NCBI RefSeq assembly: GCF_037038585.1
Contig: NC_092525.1
Span: forward strand, 32,080,367 to 32,144,366
Reading direction: 5' to 3'
Length of the DNA: 64,000 bases
Origin: Patagioenas fasciata
Lineage: Eukaryota > Chordata > Aves > Columbiformes > Columbidae
Shown: in pieces, positions 12,186 to 35,531 of the stretch
Layout: each line of letters starts with the position of its first letter
Numbering within the stretch: position 1 is the stretch's first letter
Notes under the pieces: model-generated
What the model was told of the DNA's origin: nothing
The model's database searches: none
What the model saw: only the letters and a program-made list of their open reading frames with translations
Translations under genes and position numbers: made by a program

Positions 12186-15100
12186 CTGCAAGAAAGCAAA
12201 TTAGTTTGTTTTCAGAGCAATCAAACATTAATTAATACTATGCAGGTCAAATATTTAATAGAGATGTAAGAAAAAGCTAAAAAGCTTCTTCCCCAAAAGC
12301 ATACACTTCCTCTCTTATTACAAGTTTGAGTGTGCGTGTTGTTGAAGTCCTCTTGAAAAGAGCTGAACAGAGTGAAAACTTCACTAGACCTTAGCTGAAG
12401 CTGGCATGATCTCACACAGCAGTTCTTACATCCCATTGGACAACATTGTGAATTAAAAAAAAAAAAAATCTGAAAAAATAGTGGCAATTAAAAAAAAAAA
12501 GTTCATCACTTATGTCAATAAACCCAATAAGTTAGTTTTAAAAAGGCTCAGTTTTGATATTTCAGACCAGAACAACTAGTACTTCTGTTGATGTGGAATA
12601 TGTTAGAGGATATACTGCTTGCAAGACTTGAGGTTTGAAATTATTCAAAGGGCAGGGACTCCCCTTTACAATTTTAGTTTTACCATGCAATTATTCTAAG
12701 CTTATGGGAGTAACAGGACCAAGCAGATAGTTTTTCATATCCCATCACTTGAAGATCTACTTTGAGTTTCTCGTTTCCTTTTCTGGACTAACTTTTCAGG
12801 TAGTTAGGTTGTTTTCAATCATTCGGGCCCTGTAGAATAAGGACCTGAGCTAACATTTTTTATTAACTACTGAAGCTGAAACAAGATCAGCTGGCAAGAG
12901 GCAGCTACTTACTGCTTCTCTCCTCCTGCGTTCTTGTTCCAGTTTTCTAGCCAAGTTACGATCTTGAACAAGAGTGTGTTGTTGAGCTTTGGGCAGTTGT
13001 TCACCCTTTCGCTCTTTCTGGGGCTCACAGTCTGTCACTGCCACGGCATCCGATCCTGTGCATTCGTGGCCCCTTAAAAGAAAGCAGAAGAGATCAGCAT
13101 AGATGGAAGTTATTTCTTCTTTTTTCTTCATAACAAGCCTCTGAATCTTAGGAGAATTCTGCAAATAAGTTAAATCAGTGCATAGCACTCAAATTGTGGT
13201 TCTGTTTTACAGGTCGATTCATAGTTATTTCCCTTTGCAAGGGGTATGTGGATGCAATTATTGGGCTGCAGTAGGTGAAGGTTTCCTGTTGTTCCATTTC
13301 CAGTCTATATGCACACAGGACTTATATACATGCTACACAAAGCTTACATGTGCTTTCTTTGACACACAAACACACTTAAATTTCTGTTACTTTCTTGGCC
13401 CATGATATTTTGCTTCTACCTTCTTCCTCTTAAGGTAGTTATTCAAGTTAGATTTCACTAACTTCAGGCAAGTATCTGTAATGTACTATTCCATAGAGCT
13501 ACATGAGCTACATGCCCAGGTTCATCCTCCTGGAAACCTGTAGTAGCTGAAGGTGCCTGGACTGTTCACTATACGTTCTGAACAAGGAGTGTACTCCTAA
13601 GTCACTGAAAAACTCTGTTTATTAAAATAATACACTCCAAACAAGCAACCTATTTAGGAACTGCCTCAGACTTGTCTTTCACAGGATAAAAAATAAAAAG
13701 AGAGAAAGAAAAAGATCATCGTTCCTGAAGGGGTAAATATTACAGAAAGCAGAGTTTCAAAAAGGTGGCAAACAATAATCCAAGATATTAGTGCAATGCA
13801 GTAATTAACAGGCAGTCACCCCACTTGGCATAGTTATAAACCTCAGACTGGGATACATGTGGGCACTCACTAAAACTATAGCTGCAAACAACTAGGGAAG
13901 AATATTGCAAGCAATAGCTTGTTGAGTATGTTTCTCTACAGCAATGCAGAGAGTTCTGCTGTCTGAAATGGTGAAATGGTGCGAGCTAGAGCTGCTTTAG
14001 CTCTGTTAACACTAAGTTCTTGAAGACTAGACCCCAATCCAAAAAAACCTCCAACCTCAAACACCAACATCAAACCAACCAACATTACCCCTCCCAAGAA
14101 GAGAAAACACTCCCCCCCCCCAACAAACAAACACCACCCCAAACAAAAACAAACAACCACCACCACCACCACCCCAAAACCCAAACACCACCACAACTGG
14201 AAAACTAACACCTGAGAAGTTTCTTTGGGTGCTGAAATGATACCAATTTGCAAGGGAAAAAAGCTAGTTTGTGTGTTTTGGATGTGCAGTTGTGCTGAGT
14301 GTGGTTGAACTCCCTCCATCTGTCACATGGCAGTTACCTCATCTAAACCACTTGTTCCTGAATTAACACAGCCACCCAGTAGTGAACTTTTGGAGGGGAG
14401 GCGATGAATGCTGAAGGTCTTTATTAATTCAAAAACTCCTGATTTGCCTTTCTATTTGGCTAATCAAGTGGTACTCTGGCATACAGCAGATTCGATAGAG
14501 GTTCTAGCTAATCATTACTGAATTGCAAAGCTCCACTTGTAAATTTATTTTCTTATAGCATATCCTGAGCACAGAGGTGGAGCATCATACCAGTGCTCCA
14601 GGACAGTTATCATCACTAACCAAGTATGTTTCTTTAACAGCACCCATGCCAACCATATTTATTATACAACTTTAAACAGTAGTATTGTCAGTTTATAAAG
14701 CTGACTTTTATTCTTCAGCACTGTTGCATCCTTACTCGTGATGAGAGGCACCCATCACATCAATTAAGCAGCCTGAGGCTGAAATTCTTTTTGTAGAAGA
14801 CAAAAGGACCACACTATTATTTAACGATCCAGATTGTAGGCCCTGCACATAAACAAAGCATACAAGCAAAAAAAAAAAAAATAGAATAATATTTAAACAG
14901 ATGTGGTTACAAACCTCTCTTTTTCTTGAGGAAGGTTTTGCAGTTCACCCTCAGCTTGCTCCAGAGGCCTTTTGAACTCCTGTGCTTGCCCACTCCTCCT
15001 CTTTAGTGCCGCTTTCCTGAAATGCTTGAAGCTCTCCGCAGATGTTTTTATTGGAGTTGGAAGCCTCATCATTTTACACAAGCTTACCCAGGAATCTCTG

Positions 15101-18100
15101 TTCTTAAATCCCGTATCCTGAAATTATCAGAGGAAAAGGAAAACAGAGGCAAAAATACTCCACAACTACTAATCATACATTCTCTGCTTAGTTCTCACAT
15201 TAGCACAATGTTGTTCTGACTAGACCTATTTGGGAATGTCTACAATTAAATATCCTCACTTTGGCAGGAGATTAGTGCAAATACAGCAGTGTAAGCAGAC
15301 TTTTATATTTTTCTCTTCAACTTTGAGATTCTTTAGCAATGTGCTAAAATTGTTAGCATTTATAGCTATTCTTACTCAATCCTTTACATTCATGTGTTTT
15401 TTAATTACAGAAAACATGAATTCACAAGGCTGAGCTTGTTCAAGGTCTATCAACAATATTTTAATACAGAGAACATCAATCTCATTTCTAGACATAATCC
15501 TTATATAACAACAGTTTTGTCATTTTATTCTTCCCACCTCTAGTGGCATATTCTTCACAGCATAAAACAGCATAAGCCCAGTATTCTTAAGCAGTACCAC
15601 TTCTACTAGAAAGTCATGTGTTTATGAAGGAAATACCTACTTTTTGAATTTAATTCAATAAGCTAGCTTTCTGAAACTTAGCTGCCTAAAGAAAATCCTA
15701 GGACTATTTTAATTCAACAGACCTTGTATTAATACAAACTTTTTAGGTCTAGAGGCTGACATGGTCAATTATTTAGGCTAGTAATTTTGATTTGATATTT
15801 TCGAATAGTTGGTTACCACAGAAGAAATTAAATAATGGGTAAGAAAATTCCTCTGCTCCTCCATTTAAGATAACCTGTTGTATGATGCTAGGAAATATTT
15901 TGCTTGGCTTAATTTTAATGGAAACCTTCAGATTATTTCCCAGTTGTGGTAATATCATCAAAAGCATATCATCCTGTTTCAGAACAGGTTTTTCAATAGT
16001 ACCCAAGGCTGTATGCCACATTATTCTTATTTTTGTTACTAGATCAGCAAAGGAAAGCACACTAGTAACTTGAATATTAGAACTAGATCAAGGAACACTG
16101 ATAGTTTAAATATTAAACTAGATAAGAAGCCATATTTTTCATGACAATATAGATATTATTTTTAACTTAATATTATATAGTTTACCTTCTGAAATGATCA
16201 AAGCCTGTAGATTTTTATTAGGTTGGTTTTAGCACTAGAAATTAGATAGATCTGTACAGGTTATAACAATACCTAAGACCTATCAGACACTAAATATTTG
16301 AATCATAAAAGACCAGATTTTCAGGGAAGATCCCAGGACAAGGAATTATTGGTACTAGTAAGTATTCTCAAGCTCTTCTCCTCAAACAGGGCTTAAGCAA
16401 CACTTACCTTTCTTGGAAGACCTTTGGATTTTGGCTCTAGCGTGTTTTTACCATTAGGTTTATCATTAGGTGTAGAATGACCTGAGAGAAGAACAAAAAA
16501 GATTTTTTACTCGCGTTAATTTTCTGGTCTGTGTTTCCTCAAATTTAAGAGATAGAAATCTAGTCATTCTAAAAATTGGCTTAAGAACATACCCTGCAGT
16601 TTTTTATTGTTATTATTTGGTTCAGAATGATAGAAATACTCCCAAACATTTCCTAAGCTTAAGTTGAACCAGACCACTTATTTCTAGTTTGTGGCAGGAA
16701 AGGAGTGGTTAATTTCAACTAGAAATGAGAAATTAACTCCCAGCAGAATGCCCCAAAAGTTTGGTCAAAAACTCTCAAAACAGCACCCTGCCGGTTGCTC
16801 ACCTCCTGTCTCCTCCCCACCCAGCCCTCTTCTGTTTTCATTCCCAAATTTAAAAAAAAAGGCAAAATAGGTCAGCCAGAAGGGGCTGTTTCCAGTACCC
16901 TGCAGGATGTATGAATACTTCATGCTGTTACCTTTTTATTGCTTGTGAGGGAAAAAAACCCCAACACTTCCACAGGTAAAGCACAAGTGCTATTTTGACA
17001 ACACTAACTTTAGGTTAACAGTTCCAATATGCTGTGTCGCTGTAGAAGATCCATGCTACTTCAGGTGAAAAACACTTTCCCCAAACCTTTTAAAACTTAA
17101 AAAAACCTTTTAAAATGCAGGAACAGACACCATAATGACTGTAGGAAATTGTAAGTCTTTTTGGATGTCTGATTCTAGAATACCAAAGGCAGAGCAAACC
17201 CTCAGCCAGTTTGTCATAAAAGCAGTTTTCATAAAGAGCTCTCAGCCTCCGAAAATCCCATCAAGAACACTGCCTGGCTCTGCCTGTGCCCCCACACATT
17301 GCCTCAGAGATGGTATAATTGCAAGTGAGCAGGAGAGTTTTTACTATGCAGCGGAATAAAATTGGATGAAAGAGTTCTGAAGTCTCTCAAGTCCTGTTGA
17401 AGAGTGCCGAATCCTGATATCTCCTTGCTCATGAATTCCAGGTCCAGATAAGCAAAGTCTACCTAGAAAAAATTCTGTTAGAGACTTCTCCAGAGCAGAG
17501 AAGCAGTATATGAAGGTGTCCCCTCTTAATACAATAGGCATCTTTCATCAATAATTTATCCTCATACTGGTGGCTTGAGTCTTCATGTAAGAAACTTGAC
17601 AATCTTGAGCACTGAATATTCTAAAATAAAACAAAGAGCTTCACATACCCCAAACCACCTAACACTATTGTTAAGATCAATTTAATCAACCTGTTGTACC
17701 TGCCAAGATCATTTACCTGAACTAAGCCTAAGATTAATTCAAGTTTATAGTCATGTTTAACTTAAAGCTTTGCATATAACATGAATATGAGGCTGTGTGG
17801 GCTTTGAAAAATGCATTTTAGGGCTACTTACAGCAATGTCAGGCTCCACAGAACCCCTCATGAAGAGACACTGCTTTTTAATCTGAAGGCAAGCTTCCAT
17901 TCACCAGTTTCACAAATCAAGCTTCTTAACAAGCTACCACTGAATTCAGCAATGTACCAAGCCTGAACAATACCAGGGGCGTCACACATCTAAAATCAAG
18001 AACTCTTGTTTCAGAGATGCAGGCACCCTCACAGGAATGCCAGAGACAGCAGGATTCTCTACAAATCCAACAAGTTGCTCTAGACATCCACTTCTAAAAT

Positions 18101-21100
18101 TAATTTCCCTGGTTTGATCTAAATAGACAAATATAGTACTAAGAACTCTCTACACTTTCTATCAACACGTTACAGGCCCTACAACAGTTCCAGATTAATA
18201 AAGTCTTAAAAAAACAAAAGCCTGTATTTTGCTCTTCCCCTCCCCACTTCTAGTTTTCTACGGGAGTTAATAGCAAAAAGCTCAAGATACCACCAAGCAC
18301 AGTTGGGTTGTGTGTCATCACAGGGACAGCCAAACACCACAATATCATGGAGGGGGACAGATAACTACAGTCATGTAACAGTGTTAGAAGGTCTGCTACG
18401 CTCTGCTGATGTTCAAGTGTACTCAGAGTCTTATTACTGGGTAGTTCCCATATTAAACACAGGAGCTCCTCTACAACTGTCCACACAACTGCCCCTCGCA
18501 AGAGGGGAGAAGATAGAAACAGTACCAATAAAATGAGGATTAGGAATAAGGAGTTAAGAGGGATAACAACTAAGCAGTAAATAAGTATGGAAGGGAGCAA
18601 GCTTTCCCAGTAGCTTTGGCTATGCTTTTTTGACTATGAATATTAAAACAGTGAGTTGATTTATTCCTGCTTGTTTTCCTAGTCCCGTAACATATGAAGA
18701 TAACACCAGGATCTTTATAGTTACAGTCACACAATATATGGGACAGGAATTTAAGTTTTAGGTGAAGAACATTAGCTGAATCCATGGAACCCACGTACCA
18801 GTTCCAGCTGCTGCAAGTCTAAACAAAGGGCATCAGTACGTGTACAAATCAGCATGTTAAGACCATGAAAACACTGAGTAGAACATTTTGGAGAATTAAA
18901 TCTTCATTTTTAGAGTTGCTTTAATGCAATTCATGTACCTAGTATTGTTCAGACAAGAATTAAAGAGTCAGGGAGAAAGCTGAGTTTCTGTAATTTTATC
19001 ACTTTTTCAGAAGCTTGTTCCCTCCCCTGTTCAGCCTACACAGGTAGCCTAGAGAAGAAAGAAGAAACAGTCATGTCTGGTAACATGAGGCTCTCAGCCT
19101 GGATGGTCAGTGCCCAGCTCAGAGTTCTTTAGTTAGAAATGTGTGTGAAGTCTGATGCATCCCTGTATGGAATGCAGCTTTCAGGGAACCTGTGTTCTTG
19201 TAATTGCAAGTTTGTCCCATTGTGAAAGCCTGTTTGACATTGGTTTACAGTCAGATCCTCATCACCAAGAGCCAGAGATAGTAACTCAGAATACACACAA
19301 AGTGACCTTGGAAAAGAGCATGAAGCTTCACCAGAAGACAGCTGAAAGGCCACAGCAGTTGGACAAATTGGAGCACCACTGGTTCTCTTGGACTTCCCAG
19401 AAGACCAGATTACTGATCTCTAATACTAAATTCAGAAAGCTAAGTTCTTGAATCAGAAAGTCATTTGCATTATATATTTTATCACAGAACAAGAACCAAA
19501 CATCTATTTAACTTTTCCTTTTTTTAATGGCAGCAAATCAAAAAAGAAAAAAGCAATGGAAGACTTAATTTTTCTGCAAACCAATTAATGTGCAAGTATT
19601 TAACATTTTATTTGTTTAAGCCAGGTTCATATACATTTTTAACTTTGCCACCCTGATATCAGTTACAGTCTCTGTTATGACAATACATACTTTGTTCTTG
19701 ACTTAAGGATATTGAATCAGCAGTTCTGTCACTGGCCTTGCTTTGAAATTTATTTGATTTGTCTAGATGTATTCTTTTTTCAGCTTGTTTACTTGAATCA
19801 GCACTGTCAACCTGGGAAGTTGTGTCAGATACCTAGAAGAGAAGTTAGACTTCAAAATAGGTTCTGAAGTGCTAAACATGTGGATTCTTATTATACAGCA
19901 ACAGGATTAAAGATTTAGAAGTTTCACTTTAGAGCAGTAAATTGTTGCAGCTCTAGCTTCTGTGAACACCAGGGAAGAATTACATTTCATTCACATTATG
20001 GTAGTCAAAACAAGTTCTTACATTAACACTTTGGATGTAGATCATGAACTGCTCAGGGATCTCAAGTGACAGAATGGGTAGAATGAGAGAAACTGATATA
20101 AGCTCTTCAACCCTTAACACAGTACAACATAACAGAAGTTGGTTTTTACTGTTGTAAAGCCGGTTGCTCCACCCTAGCTTATGGGTGAGGGTGAAGGGCA
20201 GCTGTATGGCTCCAGTTCAGGGGTTGCTTTGCTCTGTGTAAGCCTGTGGTAATCCCCTCACACTGGGGAAGGTGTTGTACAGACCCCAGTCTCACAATAT
20301 ATACTGCTTGCTGCCTTTGGCTACTGGATGCAAATGGGAAAGGATGAGTTGCTCTTCTTCCTTTCTTGTGGGACATATTCTTGTGCTCATATACTCCAGA
20401 GGCAGTTGCTATCCATTTCAGAAAATAAAAGCTATTAAAACCTAAAGCAGCTATGTTTGAAACCATGTTGAGAGAGATAATTAAACATCTTAAGATGGAA
20501 GAGATCATGCTGCTTCACTAACATCAATAACTTCCTTTGTAACACAGAGCCCCTTCTAACCAGGATACTCTCCAAGAGCATACTAAGACAAATCAACAGT
20601 GACTAAATATTTCACAACTTCATCTATGACCCTGAAGGCCCTGGTTTCCATGGCTTTAAGAACATGAAGAAAAGGCAACACTTTTCCAGGGTAGTCTCTA
20701 GAGTCTTCTGAGTATTGCTGAGCTTATAATATTAATATCTCTAGATAGTAGGAACATACAGTATAAGCTATATCTTATGTGAAACTGTAGGTATAGAGGA
20801 TGGACTTATCCTGTGTGCAAGACTTACTTAAGTTGAAGCTATAGAAGTAAAAGAAATAAAGTAAGCTTTGTAAGTATACTATAAACTTGATATATTGATC
20901 AGCCAAAGTCTTTCTTTTAGTGTTGTAGCCAACAGGCCATGAATTAATGCCCTACTAAAGGATAAGAATCACTTTGTTAGTGGGGATTTTAGACAACTAT
21001 TTTGTTGTAAACCTTAAGTGGCTCTTCATTGCAAATTAAACCCTAGAATATTATATATCAGATCTTATTTTGGTGAATAAGAATGTACTTTAAGTAATTT

Positions 21101-24100
21101 ATTTGAAATTAATGCATTGGAAAGAAGCATTATTCACCTCTGGAAGAACATGTGTGCACTGGGTGCCAGGAGACTGATTTGTCCTTGGAGTACTCTGAAG
21201 AGTTTGCTGGTCTGGAGCATCATACAGAGCAGATCCAGCTTTGATTATACCTGAGAAAGAAGTAGTGTATGATTTCCCTTAACATGGCAAGTGCAGTCCT
21301 ACATCTCAAAATTAGGTCACTGTTCATAACTGAGGATTAACTAGATATGGAGATATGTATCCTAGCTGCACAATGAGACAATTCTTTTTAATTAGTTTCT
21401 AATTGACTTCTCAGTTAATCAGCTACCAGCTCAATCTGTCTCTACCAAAAAAACTCAGAAGTGTCTGAAGCTATTAGACCTTCTGAAGCAAGGGAGGGAA
21501 AAGAATAGCTCCTTGGAACAAGTTTCTAAGCAACTTAATATCCAATATGTCTAAGACAACAGCAATCAGTTCAGAGCACCTATGGCACCAAGCCTTGAGT
21601 TCAGCTCATAGGGAATTCAGACATGAACTTGAGGGGTGGTGGTAGGTTCAGGCATCTAACTCCTGCCTTAAGGTGTTCAGCACTTCCTGTAACCCCAGGT
21701 TCTTTAAGGTATCATTTTCCACCTCAGAGGAAGGCACAAAAACATCCCCCTGTTTTAACACTGTTCTGCTCCACCACAAGTGCCCCAGTAATCTGAAACC
21801 CAGCCACTCCTCAGTGCTGCCACACTATTTATACCAGGTTCTTTATAATCCATGCTCTGTAATAACTTTCTTTACGCACCTGTTAACCTCCAAAACCCCA
21901 AGGTAAGCTTTTTGGACAATACAAACATCTTATTTCCTCAGCAAATACAGCCATGATTCTTGCCGTAAAGATGTTACCTGAAGGAGATTGGGCATTTTGT
22001 TCTGGGGGTTTAAGTGTTGTATTCTGTAAAGGCTGAAGCCTCGGCAGGACATTGGGAAGTGGCTGCTGCAGTTCAGATGATCCACAGTTTTGCAAGCTAC
22101 TAGTAAGCCATGAGGGCTGTGCTTGCAGAATGGCATTGCAGGATGTCCTCTGGGAACACAGTGGTATTCTCTAGAAAGATTGCAGTAGTTAATCCAGCTA
22201 AATCTTAATTTTCATAGCTATGTAATACCCCTTCCCCACCACTGCCTTATTTCCTCTGCTTATAGGCTTGAGTAGTCCTTGGATTGCAACACTAACCTAG
22301 AATTTTCAAAGAGTTTAGATGACTAAAACCCATGAGGTAAAAAGCACTGCCTTGGTCTGACATACAGAAAACCCATGAGCACAAAACGAAATGTGAGGGT
22401 TTGAAGTATGTTTGTTGTTACTCAAAGCCAGTTAGGGACTGTTGTAACTGCCCAAGCTGAAGCTTAATTCCAGTATCCCGTTTTCTCAAGTTCGTTGCTG
22501 TCATTCTGTCACTGCAAAAGCTGCAGTTTTTAAACAAACAGCATTGCATAATTCCTCCCCTCAGTCTTTCTTTATGAAGATGCAGAAGGAGTAGCTGAAA
22601 AATAAAATTGCAGCCTAGATTGCGTGTATCCAACTAAGCGCTTTAAGTGAAAGCAAACCTATTGCAAGAAGAATGAAGGCTGCGCCATAATCTTGCTTTG
22701 AAATCCAAGGTCTCTGTCTCTGGTAGCTTCAAGAAAAATTGTGAAAGGCAGCTAACTGACAAAACACCTGCTGTATAGACAGGAATAGAGCAATTCCATT
22801 TTAGAGGCATTAAAAATGATCTAGATAAACCTGCTATTGGTCATAATAATGCCATAGTAATATAAAGTACCCTGAAAATAACTAGTATGTTCTACAATTT
22901 ATCTGTTTTGAGGTCTACAAATGAGGTTATTTGTAGGTAAATGAAGTATTTAAGTGAGGTTTACACTGTTTATTATGTCAATTCTATACTCAAAGATCAA
23001 CTTGGAGCAATTTCCCTTTTTTGTTGTGGTGGTTTTTTGTTTGTTTTGTTGTGTGTTTTTTTTTTTTTTGACTTTGTGGGGTGGGTAGGGTGGAGGGGTG
23101 GGGTGTGTGTAGCCTTCTCTCCTCTTCCCACCCCCCACCTTCTTCACCCAACACTGATTACCACAATGATTGTAAGAGGTAAAAGCCTCAGGAGTTCTCC
23201 CAGTACATCAGTTTCTATACAGATGCATAAGCTACTTTTAACAAACAGAAGATTTTACATCTCCATGTAAATCAGCCCTACGGAACAAGGAGAATTCAAG
23301 CTGCATTCATTATTTCCTGATAAACTTGTCATTTCCAGTACCATTGTATGAAACAAATAACTTTGTTTAGGGCAAAACTGTTACATACATTCCAATCAGT
23401 TTACCTTAGACTTTTGCATAGAAGTTGGACAGTTCTGCCTGGTTCCTGTCTGTTTTGAGCAGGTTTCTGTAATGTAAATGCAATGAGGTGAGCAGAAAGA
23501 GGGGAACAGAAAAAGAAGAATCAGTCATTCACATGTTTCCCTGCTCATACCCACAAGATGCAAGTTGCAGTTGTACCTAGAGAGCCAAACCTCACGCTGA
23601 AAAGAACATTCTTATCTTGAATACTTTGACTGCAGCTTGGTGTGTTTAGAAAACTTCTCCCAGATATATTAAAAAAAAGACAAAACACAAAGATTCATGC
23701 AGGATCGAGGTCTTTGCTGCCATCAATGGCTTCACTGTGTTTGCTTCCCCACACTGTGAAAAGTTGGGCATTCATCTCACCCCACAGTTACCTCCTACAG
23801 ATATCTACATGGTAACCTCCAGTCTGGCAGATCCATTCTGTCCTAGAAAACTAAAGAGTTCTGTGTACAGACAGAAACATTCTGGTATCCTGATGCTGCA
23901 GCACTGTAATGTCCCTTGAAAAAACATGAGATAGCTTAAGCAGAGTAGACTTCAGCTCTCCAGTCAATGCTGTTGGCACTTTTGCCCCTCAGTTTAGGGG
24001 CTAAGCCTTACCCACAAGGTAAGGTATTCTTCATGCTGCAGACCAGAAGATGAAGATAAATCACACTTTCAAAAAGAAATCAAAACTACAAGACTAAGTT

Positions 24101-27100
24101 ATAGTCTAATAGTCATGACTCCAGGTTAAATACACAGACCTCTTTCTAGCCAATTTGGTCCCAGATAAATTAAATGGATGGGGTTTTTGTGTGTGTGGTT
24201 CTCACCCCACCCCAGACCCAGTATTAAGACACTCATTGAATAGCACTGGAATTGAGCCTTCAATATGGAGCAAACCTACAAGGGTAACCAAACTCCTTGG
24301 TCAGTATGTGGAACAGTAGATGCTAACTGAGAAGGCAGATGTTTTGCCTACACAAGCACAAAGGGAAACTTTCTGACCCGATTCGGAGTCACTGCTGTCC
24401 GAGGAGCTGGAACCGCTGCCAGAGCCTGAGGAGCTGTTGCTGTTGCTGCTGTCACTCAGTCTGCTCGGTCCAATACTGAACTCAGCATTGTTTTCAGCTG
24501 CAGAAGGAAAACAAGAAGGAATGTATAAACAACCAGCAGTGGAACAGTCATGGTGTACAAGTCTAGGATCAACCTTGTTAGGTCTGTTCTCCCATATAAC
24601 AGCTCATCTGCTATTTGCTTTTTCTCTGTCCATTTAGCAGTGGATTTGAGACCTTTACAGAGGAAGGAGATTTACCAGCCGCAAGCTAGCTGAATGAATT
24701 AGCCAAGGAGGAGCTGTAATCACACAACTTACAACCCTGAAGTAGGTTAAAACCGTACTGCCTTAAGACACAATTTCAAGCAATTTTAGCCTGTAAGTTT
24801 CCCTGCTGTTCAGTGTTTCTGTGCTTGTTGCTGCTGCCAGGCTTGCATGCTGAGGTCTTTATCTATATAGCCAACTCACCTCTTTCCCAAGCCATATGTA
24901 CTCCAGAATTGTCATCTTTTGCCACCTCCCCACCAACTGACTATTTTGTATCTGCAGAGTTGATTTAATTCAGTTTATAATGATTTTGCAGTCAAAAGGT
25001 GTTTTCAAAGAGTGTTGCTCTGATAGAAGCTTTGGATATGAGAAGTTACATGGATACCTGTTTCCCTGGACACAAGTCTCTCAAGTGCCAGCTTATGCTC
25101 TTCCTTGTTAAGAAGCCAGGTGCTAGTTGTAAAGATTCCCTGGCCTGCCTCCTCTCACTCCCCACAACATATTCTTTGCAATTGATTTCAGCTACTTCTT
25201 TAAGCTTTTATTTCTAGGATGTTGTCAAGCCATCATGTAGTACCATAAGCCCAAGGCAAGAATCACACATTAACCTATTTCTATCACAAATGAATAAAAG
25301 AGTCACATTACACTTGAAGTTCTCCTTCTTTGGGTTTAGTTGACCATTGACATCCAGTAGTCTCTTCTCTAGCTCTTGTTTCCTCTCAGAATTACATTGT
25401 TCTTTTGACTTGGTCGTTTTTTTAGCTGCATGTGAAACAGAAGTTAACATTGCAGCAAAACAGAAAAACTTGGATTGGCTTTTTTTAAAGCATCATTTAT
25501 ATTACATACCCCGCTGCTTTCTTTGTTTCTTCCTCAAACAAGTTGCCACATATTTCTCTAGTTCTCTGAGTGTTGAAGCCTTTAAAGTTTCAAAGTCTAT
25601 TTCTAACTCATCAGGGTTAGAGTTCCTCAGTGAGGGTTCTCTTGACTGTATTATATGGACTACTTTCCCAAGCTTATCTCCAGGGAGTTTATTTATGTCC
25701 AAACTCAACTGTCTTTTTTCATCATAATTCATAGGCTTGGCACCATCTTCATCTTCTGACTTAGGTGCCAAGACAACCTGCTGCATGGTTTTCTTTGATT
25801 GACTGCAAGAAAAAAAGTGTACTGCAGTAACAGCAGTTTAAAATAATTTTACACCCACACAAGTCCCCCACACTTACATGTTTAAAGATAGATTTTTCTT
25901 AGATTTCTTCCTGTGGTTTAGATTTTTCTTCTTTTGAATCAGGCTTTTTATTTTGGCTTTTTCCTTGTTCTTTCTTTCATTCCTTTTAGCCTTCCCTTTT
26001 TTCTTTTTCAGTCTAGGTGAGTATGCTCTGGTCAAAACCTGCAACTGCTGCTGAATAGCTTCAAGCTATCAAAAAATAATACTGATAGTCTTAGGCAACA
26101 TAGGATGAACAATAAACTGTCCCTAAATAACACAAGAGATTTGTGGCAGCTGAACAGATACTAACAGGGTGTTTGCTTTCTAAGGTTTAATTTCTAAGCA
26201 TCTTACTATATTATGCATTAGTCACAATCTATGTATACTGAAGATGTAAGGCTACTTATTTTATGCAGACATGGCTAACAGCATGCCTTCTAGCATCCAG
26301 TGAAGAATAAAAAAGCACAAGTCACTGCAGGAGTATCCAGCAGCTTCTCATTAATTTCAAGCATTTGGGAAGCATGTAAGTGCCTCACATTAGGTTAGAC
26401 CTTTACAATGTTACTGAATTAGGCTAGTGGAACTGGCTTGCGCATCTTCAACCCATAAACCCCAGGTATTTTGCAATATAGATTGGCTAGTTGGGACATT
26501 TTAACAGCTTTCTCTGAAGACCCAACACAAGTTTGTTTAAACCTCATAGGAATTTGAAAGACAGGTAGAAAATGAGAATTAGGATTCAGTTACACTGAAA
26601 TACTTCACTATTGCGAAGGTTGTCTTTTAGACTTCTGGTTGTCCCCAGGCCTAATATTCATGAATTTATGATGCATATGCTACTCTGACAAATACTGAGA
26701 ACTAAGCTGTCCCTCATTTGACTAACAGAACAAATGCTAATTTTCCCCATGGCTTCTAGATACAGCAGCAACAGGTTAATGCAAGATACAAGCAAAAGCA
26801 AGACTTATTCCACTTTTTGCCAGTGAAGCAAAGCCATGCTTCACATTAGCATGAGATTCCTCCTGTTTTACCTCATGGTGAGATTTCTGAAGTAGAATTT
26901 AATTGCTTGCTTTTGTGTGGCTCAAGAGACTGAGCAAAAAACCAGTCTTCAAGCATATGAAGGAAATGTGATTGTTAGAAGAATATGCCACTAAGCTACA
27001 TGTGGAGTATCTGGGTGCTCTCATCATACCACAGCAACAGCTTTGTTTTTTGGAAGTTAGAGTCATCTGAAGAAATGATAGGCAAGAGTACTAGGAGCAA

Positions 27101-30100
27101 AGATTCACTAGAATCAATTTGTATCTACTGAGGCACTATTCACCTAACATTTGGATGTGCTTCCAAATGGGAACATATTTCTGTATTAAGGAAGACAAAT
27201 TACTGTAGAACCTTTAAAATACTGAGTCTTGCTGCTAAGCCTTAAAATGGACAATTGCAAGTGGCACTGTCAGGAGGAGTATAGTAGTCCTGCGCATTGA
27301 ATACTAATGCTTACTTGCTCCTGAAGCTTTGCAAGGTGCACTGCTCTCTCCTGGTCAGAGTCTTCAGATGATTTTTCTTCTGAAGAGTCATCATTAGTGC
27401 TCTCACTGAAATTAACTTCTGTCATTTCTCTTGTAGGCTGTGGCAGACGAACACTTGCAACAGGCTCATCAGGAATTTTGGCAAAGCGCATTTCAAAGAC
27501 ATCCTAAAGAGTCAGGTTTGGGGATGGCAGAGAGGTGAGCACATTTTCCATATTTCTAAAAGCATTATGATGTTGCTGCCTGTTTTCTAGAGCTACCCAG
27601 CAACACAGTAATTGGTAATATTAGTTAATGCAAAATCAGAGCACAAGATGACCACAAAGGAATCTTCTAGCCCTGCTATTTCTCGAGTCAGATTTAAGTG
27701 ATAACTCACCTGAAGTTTCCTTGCCATAGCAACAGTTTCATGGTCTGGAGGATTACTTTTGTAGCAGTTCATGAACATTAATCTAACATCTCTAGCAAAT
27801 TCTTGAATATCTCCATATTCAAAGTTATCCATTTTCTTCTAGAGGAAAATAAAATTAGTGCACATTTAGGGCCTAAAAGTAGAAAGCATCGCTATATACT
27901 GGCAAAAAAAGAAGATGAAGAATTTTGACAGGTTCAGCTTGTATCACAGTAAATATTGTAAAAACCATTATGGAAACACCTACTTCTCATCTCAACATTG
28001 TCCCTCTAACAATGTAAGAGAATTTCCTCTTTTAAGCAGATTTGCTAACTGTAAGTGCTGGAGGCACTTTGTAGTATTGTACTAGTTTCAGCACAAGGTC
28101 AATACAAGAGCATTCAGGTGATTTTATTTAGTCGTGTGCTCAGCACTTGTTTTTGATTCTAAGCATGGTATTTCTTATAAAGCTTATTCCATAATCATTT
28201 GAGTCAAAGTAATGGGCTAGAAACAGGGAAATAACCTTTATATTGTACAAGTCAGTTTTCAAGATAATTCAACAGACTATTGAAATTCAACCCTCCCCAC
28301 AAAAGTAGATCTTGGCTAAATACTTCAACCCCAGGTAGATGTGCTCAGTGTTCACAAAGCACTTGCCAAATATCTCCATCCAGAAATGTTCCTTTTCACA
28401 GAAAATGTGAAATATGACACAAATATCCAGTGTTGAGGTTCCAGGGCACCTCTAAGTTAATGAGATTCAACAAAGCAGGAACTGACATTGCAGAACTGCA
28501 TTTTGTTTTACAGAGCATTAGCAAGAGCATTGTGTATACAGACAAAAGATATTAATATGCAGCCTGCTCAGAACTACTTCATGGAGATGGTAATTCCCTT
28601 ACTACTTATATTAGCTTGTTTGACACATGAGTAGATTAGCCACCATGCACATGGTCACACGGAATTTGAAGACTTTCTTCAGCAAGCTGTGGCTACGTTT
28701 GTTAGGAGAAGTGTGTGTGGTTTCTATGCCCATTATCTCTTTCAAAGAAAGAGCACTTTTCATGACATTTTTCAGCTAACACTATTAAAAAGCAGTCATT
28801 ACACAAATTGTTAAAGCAAGCAAACAAATAGTCTAATTCCTCTAAAACATACTTACTTTAATGGTTCCCAGGTCTGTAGGACATTTGGTGATCCCTTGGT
28901 CCTCACCGCGTGAGAAAGATGCAGCAGCTCCAGGTTTTAAGAAAGGCCAGGCATATGCTGCATGTTTCTTTGAAAACATTTCTTTAATTATTGCATTACA
29001 ATGTTTTAGTTGTTCTGACAACTGAATCTTTTTAAGAATTTCAGGTGACTGTTGAGAATCTGGCAAGTGTTTCTTCAGAAGCTTATTTGGTATCCTACAT
29101 TCATTTTCACCTCTGCATGCTTTAACAGCTTTTCTTCCATTAAATGTTGCAGAAGATTCACCACTTGCTGTGAATACTGAAATAGTAGGAGTTGTAGTGT
29201 CAGCCTTCCTTTTCACACCTTTTTTTGCCTAGGAAAATAAAATTTTACAGTCTAAAATACAGGTGCCCAAAACAGTGACAGAACAGTTTGCTTTTCAAGC
29301 ACACAAAAGAAAATCTGAAGTGTTAGAACTTGCATAGCTATTGAAGTCAGCAGAATGTGGCACTTCCGCAAGTTTAGACTGAAAACAAGATCAGCATGCC
29401 AGCATCAATCTTGAATGTCAAGGAAAGACCAGGGTGTACTGCAGGTTAGGTTGTGGTCAGTTTTTAGCCATTTGAGAAGACCCCAAGAAGCTGGTAGATT
29501 ATGAAGTTACCACAAGGTGATTGCCACAGGAAAGGGAGAAATTACTGCAACTCATTTTAAGCCCTGTTAGGGCTTTGTGTATAAGGCTTATCTCGATTTT
29601 TCTTTAACCTGGGTGGTATTTGATTTGGAAGTGATACAATGTGTACTTTGTCATCAGTGTTCAGACTCTTCAGTAAAGTGTAAATATACACTGTAGGAGA
29701 GCCTGGCACATGTGCCTGTTCCTCATTGGGAGAGCAAAACCAAAACTAAGTCAATACAGGAGTGTTTATCTGATGAAAACGTCAGATGTTCACATACATT
29801 TCAGACTGCAGTTAACAAGAATTTGCTTTTGTGAGCTACAAACACCTTCCAGGACAGTTATAGTTTAAGCAAACATGCTGTTTTGGGGGAATCAATCATT
29901 TGATTGACATTAAAAAACATGAGAAGTTGTTAATAGAACTTATTTTAATATGAAAACCATAAGGTACATCTCAAGGAAAGAACCATTTCTACACCAAGAT
30001 GAAGCCTGCAGAATTATAGTAGTAAACTTCAAGTGTGGTCATCTTAAAGTTCACCTTATTAATGTGGTTTAAAAATGTTCTCAAAGAAATAAGAGAAGAT

Positions 30101-33100
30101 ATACCAAGCAGTCATCCCAACTTCTACTTAGTGTCTAGAATTAGTACTGGCCTAATTGTTTAGCAGAGACAGACAATTTAATAGAGATCTTACTATCTTC
30201 TGTCACAATAGAAGTTTTGAAAAGATATTGCAATAAGCATGGCTCCTATGGCTTTGCTGTTAGTACCTGAAGCAGCAATTTCAATACATTTCTTTCTGAA
30301 AGTGATTTGAGGAAACTTACTCTTGAGATAGGGACTGCAGGAGGCATTAAAGCAGCCAGCTGAGCTGCAGACAGAGAAGCTGAGGTAAGCTGGTGGAGCT
30401 CCTGAGTCATCGCTGGAGGCTGCTCACTGCTTGCAGCTTGTTCCTGCATTGTGCTTCGTTGATTTGAAGTACCAGGTTTGGGCTGCTGTGTTTCTAGTTA
30501 TTTTAAAACAGAACATTTTAAAGTTAGGTCTTAAATGCTGCAGTTAATTTCTTTCATAGCCAAATTAAAGGAACACCAGCAGAACCACCCTTCCAGATCC
30601 AAACTGTACAAATAAGTACAAACAAGGGTATTGTTACATACATACAACGTTGGTATCTACTACTGAGCACCTATACCCTAAGTTCCACATATTTGGGGAA
30701 ACTGTATATTAACCTCAGAGGGAAGGCTACAGAGACATCACACTGAAACCTGTGCATTGTAGAAACATTCTTGCCAAGTAGAAAATCAAGTTGTTTTCCA
30801 CATGCACAAAGATGAAGCAGCGAAGGGTACATCAAACTGTATCATGAAGCTTCCAGTTTCTTAAGCATAGCTAAGACCTGCATATACTGCATATATTACA
30901 GATACCCATCACTGATTTGAGGATAGTTTAGACCAATGTTTTTCTGGATTTGATTTGGCTGGTTAGATTACCAATGTCTTTTCCAGCTCTGTAACTCTGT
31001 TTGGTTCCCATAGATGTTCACACCTATTAGTTTCTGTGACACAACACTAAGTAACACCATGATGTTCCCTGAAACAGAAGTCTGTTGCCTTTTTTGGTCT
31101 TTTTAAAGGGAAATTCCAAAGTCTGCAAGAGACAGGACAGAAACTCCCTTGATCATAGCAGGGTGCTCTACTGTCCAATCCAAAAATAAGTTCTTAGAAC
31201 ATTTTAAAGTTTGTACAAGACACATGCTTGTGTGTGCAAAGGGAAGAAGGGCACTTAAACAGCATCAATACCAGTAAGATGGTGTTACAAAAATATCTCA
31301 AGTTTTTTGCAATCATTTGAGAACCAAAGGGCTAACTCTGCTTACAACACATTTCTCAACAGAAGTATTTTCTGAAGTCACTTCTTCCTGTTTGACCAAC
31401 ATATTCTGTCAAGGTAATGAATTGCTTGAGATTTCACTCAAATAAGCTACTAAGAGCTGATAGCCAGATGAGTATCGTCTTCTTTCTTCCTCTTAAAGAT
31501 TCTTATGAAAGGATCAAGGAATCCACTGCTTTTCTGTATCCATCTACCAGAGCACTGGAAGTGGTGTTGCTCCTCAAATACACCTTGAGGAGAAAGCTAC
31601 AGAGATCTATCAAACTAATACTGTTCTGAAGAAACATTTGTTTCAGATACTACCAGCAACAAGGACCACCAGACCACAAAAAACAGTAAGAGAAAGCAAG
31701 TAAAGTCATCAGGAGACCCTGAAGAGCATAGGAAGTCAGTGATGAGTACCAAGTTGCAGCTAGTCACCTGGGCCCTTGCAATTAGGCTTCTCAATGTCAC
31801 TTCAACCATTTACTGTGTAATTCCCTCATAACTGAGATGTCTTGACTGAATCATCCTTTTTGTGAGCAAAAGTACTGCATTTTACCAGATGTTTGCCTGT
31901 GAAGCTATGCTATTACACTGCTGGTTCTTACCTCCTCTTAAACACTCTTTCTTGGTAGAAAATAGTAAATTTAGCTAGTACATATTAAAAAGTATTATGG
32001 CTGCACTGAAGCTGCTAAAGCCTTATAGCAATGTTGTTACTTGTCTATATGGGAAGAGTTTGAGAACACCCCAGCTGCTCCAGGGTTCAGTTGTGACAAG
32101 CTACAGAGGATTCTCTGTTTCCAGCTTTTTCTTGTTTAACATATTAGTAATTCAACACATAACACAGGCCTTACCTTCTGGCTTCTTCCCTTTTCTCTTT
32201 CCTTTGTTGAGAATCACAGGTCTTTCTTCTGGTGGCATTTGGGCTATTTTCTGCATAAACACTTTTTCTAGTTCTTCAGCCATAAACACAATGTCATCAC
32301 CTGGCTGCAAAATATAGTCAGTAACATTCGGAATAAAGAAGAGGCTGCAGCAACAGAGGGCTACCTTGTAAAATAAACAGTCTACAGAATCCTGCTCCAA
32401 CAGATTGAAAAAGCCACCAGTACCAGAGAGATCTACAAGTCCTTGCCATCCTGGCCACCCACCCTTTAATACAAAAGTTGGTTCATTATTGAAATACCCT
32501 TTCTCCCTCTGTCCCATTGCACAGTCCTACTTGCTTTATATCCACATACTTCCCACAGCAAAGGGAAAAAGCATCAGGTCTGTAACTCATTCATTCCTAG
32601 GTTCTGAAAAAAAAGCTGTTGAAGATTAAAAATGCTAAGACAGCCAACAAACATCCAAATGCAGGGACATGCTCTCACTTCAAGTTAGGTTAATTAAACT
32701 TGTTGGAGGAGTGAAGCACAGCTTCAGGGTTGCTAGCCTTAAATCTGTATAGCAGTTACATGGTGCTTACTGTTCATCAGCTCTGCAACTAAAACACAGA
32801 TTTTGCAGGCAGACCTATGCTCTCAGGTGTTGTAACAGCAGGCTAGACTTTGCCTACATGCCCTCAATCAATCCCAGCAAAGCCCCCTCACCTTTCACAG
32901 AAAAGTTTCAAAAAAATCATGACAATATTGACTGCAGGTTTTAATAACCATTTCCTTGTTTCAGACTTGTTTGTGGTGTTCCATTGAGTTGGTTACTGGT
33001 AGGACGCTATGCTTTGCATACCTTGTTATATATGTAGCAGTTCAAGAACATAGTTTTAAAGTCTTCAATGCATTCTGCAGCTTTTGTGTAATAATTGTGT

Positions 33101-35531
33101 TCCAGACGCTTTTTAATGGTCATCAAATCCATAGGTTTCTTTATAATACTGTAATAATCCTGTGGGTTTGAAAGAGTCACACAATAGATATCTTTAATAT
33201 TAGGACAGGAAGATTCTTATACATTTAGTCAAGAAAGTTAAATTGCAAGAGAGGAGAATTGCATGATCTTGGAAGGGATATTCTATTTAAAGAAACACTT
33301 TCCCTTATAGTCACAGGTACCACAGAAATAAGTGTTCAGAAACTCTTCACCTCATATATTCTCCTTACTCTTTCATACAACATCCGCTCTTCAAAGCCCC
33401 AAGGAGTGTTTATTTCAAATAGGATCCAGAGCTATATTGGTAGCAGTACTTATGAAAAGTATATGTACTTATTTGTTATCTCAGAGCCATTTACCTGAAG
33501 TAGCACTTCAGTTTACAGAACAAGGAGAAAAGAAGCAAAAGACAGACTTTGACAAAAACTCAGTCACTGACAAAAAGAAACCACAAAGTTTTCCCAGTTG
33601 CTGGTCAAATACTTCATCCCGTGGTGATATTGGCTCTCCTCTCAGGGTTAGTCTACTGAAGATGTGGCAATATGACTGAAAGGCAGCTGGAATGGGAACT
33701 ATTGTGAGTATTTTAGTGGCATGGCTAAAAGCTTGTGATTAAAAACATGAGGTTGATTCCCTGCGGGTGCATTGAAAAAGTCAAAACAGGAATATCTCCG
33801 CTAAGCTCACCTATACATTGCAATTGTGTGAAGTTACTGCTACTTCAAGAATCTCCTAAAGGTCTTAACAATTCATTTTAGTGAAATTTTAAAAAGCTAA
33901 ATACATCATACTGGAGACTGTTGAATTTACCAAAACAAAACCAGTAAAACTTTTAAATAATGCAGCTAATACTTAAGGTTTGTCCATTCTGAATCTTCTA
34001 ACACCTGGAGGAGAGAGGCAAAGGAGGCCAATACCCTCATTGTCCTTGCCACAGAGCCAGAGGTTTGCTTGTTCTTGTGCAGCAGTTGAACTAACACATA
34101 CTTTTAGAAGTCAAGTGGCTGCCTTAGAAATCCAGAGAGGCAGAACTGGCCTGAGGCCAGCTGCAAATGTTGCTACATCTCTGATTAAGTGACCCTTAAT
34201 ATTAACCTCAAGTGACAGCTCCTTCCAAGAAGGAAAAAGGGTAAGAAAATACACAGAAAGATAGTCACTTTGACTGTGCTTTTGGACAAACTGACCAAAT
34301 GAATTTGTCAGTAGAAACAGCTGCAGGTAAAGGTTTTGTCTGCTCTAAACAAAACCAATGATTTTGTAGAAATAGTCTTGGAAATTGGAGAGAACTAACT
34401 ACAATTACTTATGCTAGGGAAAAAAAAAAAAAGAAAATGTACCATGGTTTTATTTAACACCTTTCTACTCATCTACAAGAGCAATATCTTCCAGGTCATT
34501 TGAAATACTATTGTGTGAATAACTGTTGTTTTCATTTGACTGAAAAAGCTGGGCTGATCCAACACTGGAGCCTAAAGATACCTGAATTAAGACAACTTAT
34601 CACACAACATTATATTCGTTCACTTAGTTGCAATTAAATGGTAGCATAAATAAAATCCACAAGGCAATAAATAACAAGAATTTAAGTATCAGATCTCCTA
34701 TTTCCTAGAAGGATTTTCTGCCACTGTGGTATGATGAGAACACTATCTCTTTTTTCTTCCCTATTTTTTCAGGGACATTTAATTCCTCTAGAAACTTCAG
34801 AGCAAGATACCAAAGTTGATTTGAAATTAAGAAGCACTACAAGTTTAATTACTTCTACACATCAAACTGATCCAGATTTTCCTGTTTATTTTAGGGTCAA
34901 TGAGATCTGCTTTTCCATCATAAAGTATTGACATTAAAAGAGACAGTTCACCTCCTATTAAAAGGAAAAAACTCAAGCAAAATAAGTACATCATGTGCAG
35001 TGTTAATGAATATGGCTAAACCAGCAGGGAGGTCGAAAGAAGACAGAACAGAGCACCAACATCCAGAAACTCCAAGAAGCTTGTCTACACATTCTTGTTA
35101 TACCTTAGAAATATTGGTTTACTACAGTCACAGATCAGAAAGCAAATGAAAAAAGGTGCAGCATTTAGTGTGGACCAGAGAGCAAACAAGTTTTGTTGCA
35201 GACTTGGAACAATGAAAGAAGTTCACATGTGAAAACTGGCCTCCCCTGATCTGTTGCATCAGAAAACACTCTTTAACACTTATTCATAAGGCCTGTAGTA
35301 CTTTACATATTAATACTCCAATTCCAAAGCAGTTCTTACAGGAAGATTCAGTGCTGCTGCATCTACAGGCTGATGAAAGGGCCAGGAGAAGTTGTGTCTC
35401 CACATGGCTTTCATCACCACCCTCTGCAAGTACTGAAGTTGGTTTGTTTGACAACCATTGTTCTTGTTATTTATATACTCTGGTGGAGGTGGGTTAATAA
35501 TAACAGAACAGTATTGGCTTGGAACAGACAT
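12108..35531 (-). CDS. BRDT: BRDT, bromodomain testis-associated protein (19 coding exons, 1,020 aa)
   Basis: BRDT is the germ-cell member of the BET family. It binds acetylated histone tails (mainly through bromodomain 1) and is needed for meiotic and post-meiotic transcription and chromatin compaction in sperm precursors. I assembled 19 coding exons by eye. All junctions are GT-AG, phases agree, and the total is 3,063 nt including TAG (human protein about 947 aa). Domain order: bromodomain 1 about residues 27-140 (WPF 50-52, acetyl-lysine Asn109); linker with the KRKAD nuclear-localisation block (about 216-221); bromodomain 2 about 280-395 (WPF 305-307, Asn364); Lys-rich stretch 450-500; ET domain about 520-600; Ser/Gly/Asp-rich acidic segment about 640-679; C-terminal P-TEFb-interacting motif (about 975-1015). 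BRD2/3/4 are excluded by the C-terminus and by the EPHX4 neighbour. Odd: the ZA loop of bromodomain 2 is strongly altered. The first, untranslated exon was not found. Confidence 0.95.
12913..13072 (-). CDS. BRDT: BRDT coding exon 18
   Basis: Acceptor TTTTAAG, donor GTAAGT after GCA. The 160 nt complete a split Arg codon and end in the charged helix [18 protein letters not shown], the core of the C-terminal P-TEFb-binding motif. The first half is poorly conserved. Intron before it: 1,842 bp. Confidence 0.93.
14112..14197 (+). repeat. A/C-only low-complexity tract (86 nt) in BRDT intron 18
   Basis: No G or T in 86 consecutive bases: a C9 run, CAAA-type words, then six tandem ACC triplets (about 14158-14173). 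Flanking sequence from about 14039 is also strongly A/C biased. This is the longest such tract in the window. Confidence 0.9.
14915..15117 (-). CDS. BRDT: BRDT coding exon 17
   Basis: Acceptor TTTCAG, donor GTTTGT (weak). Encodes a segment starting NRDSWVSL and containing [13 protein letters not shown], matching the human DSWKSL...LFNQFRKAAIEK region. 203 nt, ends with two bases of an Arg codon. Intron before it: 1,290 bp. Confidence 0.93.
16408..16481 (-). CDS. BRDT: BRDT coding exon 16
   Basis: 74 nt between TCTCAG and donor GTAAGT. Encodes a polar, unstructured segment ([20 protein letters not shown]). It is placed by splice sites and phase rather than strong similarity. Intron before it is the longest in the gene, 3,209 bp. 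Confidence 0.85.
19691..19832 (-). CDS. BRDT: BRDT coding exon 15
   Basis: 142 nt after TTCTAG, donor GTATGT, leaving phase 1. Encodes a Ser/Lys/Asp-rich disordered stretch ([20 protein letters not shown]...). Weak similarity to mammals; supported by splice sites, phase and position. Intron before it: 1,305 bp. Confidence 0.85.
21138..21250 (-). CDS. BRDT: BRDT coding exon 14
   Basis: 113 nt after TCTCAG, donor GTGAAT. Begins with the split Gly codon and [13 protein letters not shown], corresponding to the human GITVMHPSGDSD segment. Polar and disordered. Intron before it: 727 bp. Confidence 0.87.
21978..22170 (-). CDS. BRDT: BRDT coding exon 13
   Basis: 193 nt after TTTCTAG, donor GTAACA. 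Contains [20 protein letters not shown], aligning with the human QELEHLQTVKNISPLQILPP region, a conserved island in the otherwise variable C-terminal half. Intron before it: 1,234 bp. Confidence 0.9.
23017..23070 (-). repeat. G/T-only tract (54 nt; A/C on minus strand) in BRDT intron 13
   Basis: Only G and T for 54 bases, followed by a G-rich GGGGTGGGTAGGG stretch and then a C-rich patch. With the BRDT sense strand as reference it is an A/C tract. Confidence 0.85.
23405..23466 (-). CDS. BRDT: BRDT coding exon 12
   Basis: 62 nt after ATTACAG, donor GTAAAC. Encodes [20 protein letters not shown] after a split Glu codon. No clear counterpart recalled in mammals; included because phase and splice sites fit and keep the frame open. 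Intron before it: 911 bp. Confidence 0.75.
24378..24497 (-). CDS. BRDT: BRDT coding exon 11 (Ser-rich acidic segment)
   Basis: 120 nt after TCTGCAG. The donor is GTCAGA, unusual at position 3. Encodes [15 protein letters not shown] then an uninterrupted Ser/Gly/Asn/Asp run ending SSDSSDSES, the SEED-like Ser/Glu/Asp cluster found after the ET domain in BET proteins and likely a phosphorylation region. Intron before it: 814 bp. Confidence 0.9.
25312..25425 (-). CDS. BRDT: BRDT coding exon 10
   Basis: 114 nt after ATGCAG. Encodes [20 protein letters not shown] then [17 protein letters not shown], matching the post-ET helix of human BRDT ([15 protein letters not shown]). Phase requires the donor GTAATG at 25311; the nearby GTGTAA would put a stop codon into the next exon. 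Intron before it: only 84 bp. Confidence 0.9.
25510..25802 (-). CDS. BRDT: BRDT coding exon 9 (ET domain)
   Basis: 293 nt after CTTGCAG, donor GTATGT. Carries the complete extraterminal (ET) domain, e.g. [20 protein letters not shown] and [17 protein letters not shown], nearly identical to other BET proteins. ET recruits partners such as NSD3 and JMJD6 in the family. Intron before it: only 75 bp. Confidence 0.97.
25878..26065 (-). CDS. BRDT: BRDT coding exon 8 (Lys-rich)
   Basis: 188 nt after TTGATAG, donor GTAAGT. Begins [18 protein letters not shown] (human LKAVHQQLQVLSQVPFRK) and continues as a very basic Lys/Arg/Asn-rich run of about 45 residues. Ends two bases into an Ile codon. Intron before it: 1,249 bp. 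Confidence 0.92.
27315..27503 (-). CDS. BRDT: BRDT coding exon 7
   Basis: 189 nt after CTTTAG, donor GTAAGC. Starts [14 protein letters not shown], the end of the bromodomain 2 C helix common to BET proteins, followed by an acidic Ser-rich stretch ([16 protein letters not shown]) and LAKLQEQ. Intron before it: 206 bp. Confidence 0.96.
27710..27838 (-). CDS. BRDT: BRDT coding exon 6 (bromodomain 2, helices A-C)
   Basis: 129 nt after CCTCTAG, donor GTGAGT. Encodes [20 protein letters not shown] then [14 protein letters not shown]. The acetyl-lysine-binding Asn (residue 364) is kept, but the residue before it is Ser instead of the near-universal Tyr (KYN in other BET second bromodomains). Intron before it: 1,018 bp. 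Confidence 0.96.
28857..29228 (-). CDS. BRDT: BRDT coding exon 5 (NLS; bromodomain 2 with altered ZA loop)
   Basis: 372 nt after TTCCTAG, donor GTAAGT. Starts [14 protein letters not shown], the conserved nuclear-localisation block. The Z helix ([20 protein letters not shown]) and YAWPF shelf are normal. The next 22 residues (308-329) read [15 protein letters not shown] and GITKCPT, where BET proteins have a PVD...LGLHxYYDxIKxPM pattern, then DLGTIK resumes normally. Length is conserved and there is no frameshift. Intron before it: 1,092 bp. Confidence 0.95.
30321..30493 (-). CDS. BRDT: BRDT coding exon 4 (inter-bromodomain linker)
   Basis: 173 nt after AACTAG, donor GTAAGT. Encodes a Gln/Ala/Ser/Pro-rich linker including [17 protein letters not shown] and [18 protein letters not shown]. 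It is poorly conserved with mammals; support is phase, splice sites and the open frame. Intron before it: 1,681 bp. Confidence 0.88.
32175..32304 (-). CDS. BRDT: BRDT coding exon 3 (bromodomain 1, helix C)
   Basis: 130 nt after TTTGCAG, donor [26 protein letters not shown] then AQMPPEE complete bromodomain 1; a basic tail (GKRKGKK) follows. Intron before it: 717 bp. Confidence 0.96.
33022..33159 (-). CDS. BRDT: BRDT coding exon 2 (bromodomain 1, ZA loop to B helix)
   Basis: 138 nt after CCCACAG, donor GTATGC, phase 0 at both ends. [20 protein letters not shown] and [13 protein letters not shown] carry the intact ZA-loop tyrosines and the acetyl-lysine Asn109 preceded by Tyr. Intron before it: 2,180 bp. 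Confidence 0.97.
35340..35531 (-). CDS. BRDT: BRDT coding exon 1 (start codon, bromodomain 1 N-terminus)
   Basis: ATG at 35531-35529 begins [20 protein letters not shown], matching the human start MSLPSRQ. It continues through [19 protein letters not shown] and the SWPF shelf to LNLP, with donor GTAAGA. 192 nt, 64 codons, phase 0. Confidence 0.97.

Follow-up and report, generated by a model that had tools for sequence, protein, structure and literature searches.

BET proteins carry two acetyl-lysine readers, the bromodomains BD1 and BD2, in tandem. Here we describe the gene for one of them, BRDT (bromodomain testis-specific), in a stretch of 64,000 nucleotides from Patagioenas fasciata (contig NC_092525.1, positions 32,080,367 to 32,144,366), which is called the window in the following. 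The ZA loop of its BD2 is altered to such an extent that the domain is probably a scaffold, which does not read acetyl-lysine or reads it only very weakly. The described domain to be compared with it is BD2 of human BRDT (letters checked against PDB chains 7lek and 7l99). It occupies the same place between BD1 and the ET domain, and both have the WPF shelf and Asn433 (pocket residues are numbered as in BRD4); the loop of the human domain, however, is the canonical YNPVDVNALGLHNYYDVVKNPM. For mouse BRDT BD2 there is the structure 2wp1. Atypical human bromodomains keep the fold but have exchanged pocket residues, show weak or absent binding of acetyl-lysine and usually have lost the Asn anchor. 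The avian BRDT domain differs from these in that the Asn mostly stays while the ZA loop goes, and in that it belongs to a BET protein.

According to the accessible parts of one study (PMC5187433), BD1 of human BRDT alone holds acetylated nucleosomes, while BD2 does not bind them, nor does it bind DNA; BD2 binds acetylated histones outside nucleosomes and is reported to bind acetylated H3 peptides. The same text cites earlier work in which BRDT BD2 was "at least in part, dispensable". The importance of the pocket tyrosines is known from BRD4, where Tyr97Phe in BD1 (the counterpart of Tyr390 in BD2) severely impaired binding to acetylated H4; earlier Tyr139 and Tyr432 mutants had a weaker interaction with acetylated chromatin, although the effect of Tyr139Phe was marginal in the same paper (PMC3979416, in the part available). 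BRDT is a target for male contraception and BD2-specific inhibitors are in development, as stated in the available part of PMC7936271.

The altered BD2 loop in the window

The loop lies in exon 5 of the gene (28857..29228; this and all other BRDT features are on the minus strand), which has canonical borders and ends in a GTAAGT donor. A previous sequence-only reading had claimed that the loop signature was replaced in frame, and exon reading confirmed this. The WPF shelf (28941..28949) and the DLGTIK motif (28857..28874) are intact and the segment between them (28875..28940) has 22 codons, exactly as in human BRDT. The shelf itself comprises residues 304-306 of the spliced model and not 305-307 as first given. 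Only three of the 22 loop residues are identical to human YNPVDVNALGLHNYYDVVKNPM, in contrast to 65/90 in the rest of BD2. The comparison with BD2 of BRD2 and BRD4, which have ALGLHDYxDIIKHPM in their loops, gives the same picture: outside of the loop the window has a BD2-type sequence, which matches theirs at 70 and 69 of 90 positions, but inside it the matches are only 6/22 and 5/22.

The replaced residues include ones which line the acetyl-lysine pocket. The places of Val380, Leu385 and Leu387 are taken by Gly, Phe and Arg, and Tyr390 by Asp; Met398 is replaced too. The alteration is also not confined to the loop; in the following exon 6 (27710..27838), which encodes the middle of BD2, Tyr432 is replaced by Ser (27755-27757) and the gatekeeper Val439 by Thr (27734-27736). 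The WPF shelf and the anchor Asn433 (27752-27754) are retained, and the domain is still recognized as a bromodomain (PF00439, 53.6 bits with a cut-off of 21.7).

A canonical loop could be hidden elsewhere in the gene. When segments from human BRDT, from human BRD2 and from turtles were used as tblastn queries, the BD2 loop was matched solely at the exon 28857-29228 in the 64 kb; the remaining good matches were to the BD1 exons and the later BD2 exons. We therefore reject the idea that the window hides another exon whose BD2 loop is canonical. Compensating frameshifts were rejected as well, because the other two frames do not contain the consensus, in agreement with the earlier reading. The loop holds a perfect 5-base inverted repeat (CTCAC-GCG-GTGAG), which would be compatible with a local template switch or micro-inversion; this candidate was discarded since the altered loops of other birds differ in the residues at this position. 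Finally, the BRDT proteins of Columba livia (P0121/P0122) have the same 22 loop residues, except for an I where the window has R, and in two exon fragments the loop deviates from that of the window by a single residue (P0001) and by two residues (P0002). Because these sequences carry nearly identical loops, the alteration is beyond chance or base-calling error.

The loop in other birds and in turtles

A first search with the exon as query returned fragments with the same kind of loop. Two protein searches followed, of which the best 120 of 2836 matches (spliced protein as query) and the best 120 of 1992 matches were used. The spliced query itself carried the altered loop, and its matches are ranked by likeness to that query; the query of the last search had the shortened but otherwise canonical loop of the exon fragment P0021, ALGLDIIKCPMD. 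It gave further birds and ten turtles. Of a total of 162 rows, 11 were removed as duplicates and two (P0263, P0277) because of gaps, 13 in all, which left 139 avian rows, including the window, and 10 turtle rows; a row is a distinct sequence and not a species. Columns absent from the window were removed from the alignment, so that insertions such as those in Columbina (P0124) and Tauraco (P0203) are hidden.

The BD2 loop is altered in all 139 avian rows, among them ostrich, rhea, kiwi, tinamou, magpie goose, galliforms, doves, penguins, owls and passerines. A normal LGLHxYYD in related genomes would have contradicted the earlier reading, but not a single avian row keeps Tyr390. Leu385 is kept in five rows and Met398 in one; Leu387 survives in about half (76/139) and Val380 in most of them (114/139). 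Outside of the loop Tyr432 is absent from every avian row, and Val439 is found in only 14, while 118 have Ile as in BD1. Many songbirds have IKPVDVASFSTGVNQAIAKCPT or near variants of it. This is in sharp contrast to BD1 of the same proteins, in which the counterparts Trp81, Pro82, Phe83, Val87, Asp88, Leu92, Leu94, Tyr97, Tyr98, Met105, Tyr139 and Asn140 are each present in 139/139 rows; the Ile146 counterpart is I in 130 and V in nine.

The fact that ostrich, rhea, kiwi, tinamou, magpie goose and galliforms all have the altered loop indicates that the change most likely predates the split of the living birds. This dating is based on the agreement of the birds. Since the altered loop is common to every bird examined, it is probable that one of the two BRDT readers has stood idle since modern birds arose.

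Avian BD2 has kept the flanking DLGxIK and nearly always the loop length, which varies in a few birds. One residue is missing at the Val380 place in sea eagles, harpy eagle and osprey (P0169, P0170, P0175, P0177, P0277), two are missing further along in two starlings (P0275, P0278), and a tinamou also lacks one or two; Columbina (P0124) and Tauraco (P0203) have one extra residue each. The anchor position varies too. Asn433 is replaced by His in four avian rows and by Tyr in one, the rows being P0191 (Tyto), P0163 (Numenius), P0203 (Tauraco) and the passerines P0215 and P0225; two rows have a gap. In Cuculus canorus (P0264, P0265) the motif reads YKHCPDHE, compared with YKHNSPDHE in many birds. 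One residue is thus missing at or beside the anchor, and therefore even the anchor seems to be gone there. The adjacent residue 434 is Ser in 133/139 avian rows and Pro in four. The motif is NPPDH in the window (27740-27754) and Columba, NPSDH in Caloenas (P0121-P0124 for these doves) and NSPDH or NSSDH in most birds.

The alignment of exon 5 from birds and turtles, which had been proposed in the sequence-only reading, revealed a milder and different erosion in turtles. Their BRDT orthologues (Emys, Chelonia, Dermochelys, Emydura, Pelusios and others) have Ser at Pro434 in 10/10 rows, like most birds but unlike the window with its Pro. Tyr390 is absent from nine of the ten rows, by changes other than the avian ones. 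The eight cryptodire rows have YKPVDITALGLNDHHDTMKCPI or something near it, with His at Tyr390; of the side-necked turtles Emydura has Cys there and Pelusios Tyr, and in both the loop is one residue shorter behind this position. All ten rows retain Leu385 and Tyr432. The consensus sequences of birds and cryptodires are identical at 102/108 positions in BD1, 76/90 in BD2 outside of the loop and 84/133 in the linker, but only at 8/22 in the loop. According to one reading of these data, the pocket came under weaker constraint before the bird-turtle split or shortly after it and was then lost along a separate path in each line; the losses in birds and turtles may also have been independent.

The fragment P0021 lacks four loop residues, Tyr390 among them by alignment, between canonical flanks (ALGL and DIIKCPMDLG). 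Its best identity to a full-length protein is 69%, to a turtle and some others among the matches listed. In a tree of exon 5 it falls outside the bird clade, but its join to the birds has a support of 24. Because of this low value, and because the mammal-like short fragment P0088 falls inside the turtles, the tree fails to identify P0021. The matches listed included neither a crocodilian nor a squamate BRDT.

No prior report of a loss of the BD2 loop in bird BRDT was found among the titles and abstracts listed by full-text searches, in which subscription journals are mostly uncovered. A BET protein which has the usual architecture, but whose second reader is without its reading loop in every bird examined, may be new. 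Birds resemble a natural experiment: an entire vertebrate class appears to make sperm with a BRDT whose BD2 has no reading loop; the purpose of BRDT BD2 should therefore be testable by comparison. A further prediction is that bird BRDT would be insensitive to drugs directed at BD2.

Rates, fold and explanations for the altered loop

Relative site rates were estimated on a tree of the 139 avian rows with the JTT+F+R5 model. The mean rate of the 22 loop residues is 1.68, which is 2.4 times that of the other 90 residues of BD2 (0.69) and five times that of the corresponding BD1 loop (0.31). The rest of BD1 has a rate of 0.41 and ET of about 0.46; together with the tblastn matches these values bear out the earlier statement that BD1, ET and the C-terminus are conserved. 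The loop is no slower than the long linker between BD1 and BD2 (1.38), the acidic linker (1.43) and the lysine-rich stretch (1.38). By Mann-Whitney p values, which are only guides as sites are non-independent, its rate clearly exceeds that of the rest of BD2 (p=3e-7) and of the BD1 loop (p=5e-7), is slightly above that of the long linker (p=0.026) and does not differ from that of the acidic linker (p=0.16). Among the 617 windows of 22 residues in the protein, only 25 have a higher rate. Entropy gives the same order, with 0.77 bits in the loop, 0.64 in the long linker, 0.27 in the rest of BD2 and 0.13 in the BD1 loop.

The fold of the domain was examined in an AlphaFold2 model of Columba P0121. 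It predicts all four helices (Z, A, B and C) of BD2 at residues 273-295, 331-339, 346-363 and 369-386. The predicted local distance difference test (pLDDT) score lies between 78 and 87 in blocks of 10 residues, except for the first block (56) and those round the loop (68, 36, 41). The loop itself (310-328) scores below 50. This says nothing on the loop, since the intact BD1 loop (57-72) scores equally low. The fold model which had been called for hence supports the domain and is silent on the loop. The 50 Foldseek matches shown were mostly BD1 structures and are no test of BD2.

Among birds the loop changes at the pace of the linkers, and for this reason we favor a decay of the binding loop over a re-purposing. 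The earlier reading had left both open; its observation that the pocket-lining residues of the loop are mostly lost holds, while a new role can still point to a set of conserved positions. In the explanation which we consider probable, binding of acetyl-lysine by the avian BD2 would be lost or very weak and BD1 alone would bring BRDT to acetylated chromatin. BD2 would be retained since its folded body spaces or supports the protein, or since its helices bind a partner. The loss was probably possible because nucleosome reading by BRDT BD2 was already dispensable. It would predate the divergence of the living birds and may have started before the bird-turtle split, as most turtles examined have also lost Tyr390 by other changes. 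The bird domain would represent the final stage of a reader which BRDT was able to do without.

Several observations weigh against this explanation. Asn433, which anchors acetyl-lysine, is kept in 132/139 avian rows, and Trp374, Pro375 and Phe376 of the shelf in 138, 139 and 139. This near fixation goes beyond what is expected of a wholly unused pocket. In addition, loop residues are missing in just six of the 139 rows, and at eight of the 22 loop positions (K308, P309, S314, F315, S316, Q321, K325 and P327, numbered as in the spliced model) a single residue accounts for 90% or more of the rows. In view of these facts the domain may still read weakly or serve a new contact, two alternatives which we regard as unlikely, though not negligible, even when both are taken together. 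The broader scenario, in which all birds have a one-reader BRDT, erosion goes back perhaps to the ancestor shared with turtles, and loop and helices have entered a bird-specific contact in the remodeling of sperm chromatin, seems rather unlikely to us. The more specific proposal that the loop has become a new surface or short motif (SFSxGExQxIxKxPT) for a bird-specific partner in spermatogenesis is a little more doubtful. The almost constant length and the eight conserved positions speak for it, and so does the stronger constraint on Asn433 and on BD2 outside of the loop; however, the loop evolves no more slowly than the linkers, and eagles, osprey, starlings, a tinamou, Columbina and Tauraco tolerate the loss of one or two residues or the gain of one.

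It is very unlikely that the pocket, with Asn433 and a rebuilt loop, now reads another acyl mark or an acetylated non-histone protein. Such a change of specificity could explain why anchor and shelf persist, and for human BRDT BD2 the recruitment of a non-histone protein in acetylated form is suggested in the accessible parts of PMC5187433. But Tyr390 is replaced by residues as unlike as N, K, D, S, T and H, and Tyr432 by H, R, S, N, C and Q, and some birds have lost Asn433 itself, which a tuned pocket would hardly tolerate. Even less plausible is the idea that most replacements were caused by GC-biased gene conversion, irrespective of selection. The G+C content of the 66-base loop segment is 50%, compared with 36.5% in the rest of the exon, and it has two CpG against one in the other 304 bases; on this ground biased conversion had been thought to contribute. 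The third codon positions of the segment, however, have only 32% G+C, and 16% of the 66-base windows across exons 1-7 (with approximate borders) are equally G+C-rich, so that biased conversion is not needed. An assembly error, a pseudogene or a mis-spliced exon with a normal loop in the true transcript has next to no probability and is already refuted at the DNA level. Nothing was found in its favor apart from the inverted repeat, which had first hinted at a local templated mutation; the altered loop is common to Columba, Caloenas, Columbina and every other bird examined, the exon borders are canonical, the gene is open throughout and the window has no second canonical BD2 loop.

The remaining gene

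The BRDT gene extends over 12111..35531, as obtained from tblastn of P0122 on the window and from exon reading. BD1, BD2, ET and the C-terminal tail are present in that order in an open reading frame. The protein is 95% identical to Columba livia BRDT, and the best 120 of 2836 matches are all avian. With few exceptions they bear the name BRDT or bromodomain testis-specific; "BRD3-like" occurs in some older predictions among these 120, and one has no name. In tblastn, 17 blocks together span the Columba livia BRDT isoform X2 (1014 amino acids) from Met1 to the C-terminus. Stops inside these blocks are limited to 26065-25313 and the end of 19832-19623; we read the stop-bearing stretches as matches which run on through an intron.

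ARAGORN found no tRNA in the window, Rfam gave no match at gathering score and a scan of viral contigs (one) found no relative. The exons, placed by exon reading and tblastn, follow the order of the domains. Exon 1 (35340..35531) carries the start codon and the first half of BD1, exon 2 (33022..33159) the remainder of its ZA loop and the pocket Asn (NCYIYN), and exon 3 (32175..32304) its end. Downstream of the altered loop, exon 7 (27315..27503) contains the end of BD2 and the acidic linker. Exons 8-10 including their introns (25313..26065) contain the lysine-rich stretch, the ET domain and the helical stretch after it. The last exons (12111..13074) encode the conserved C-terminal tail, which is presumably P-TEFb-binding; it was located by tblastn and is covered by a precomputed PF17105 match on P0121 and P0122. 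In BD1 the window has MDLMTIKKR (codon 33121-33123) and Columba MDLTTIKKR, compared with MDLSTIKKR in the bird consensus and in the displayed bird BD1 rows.
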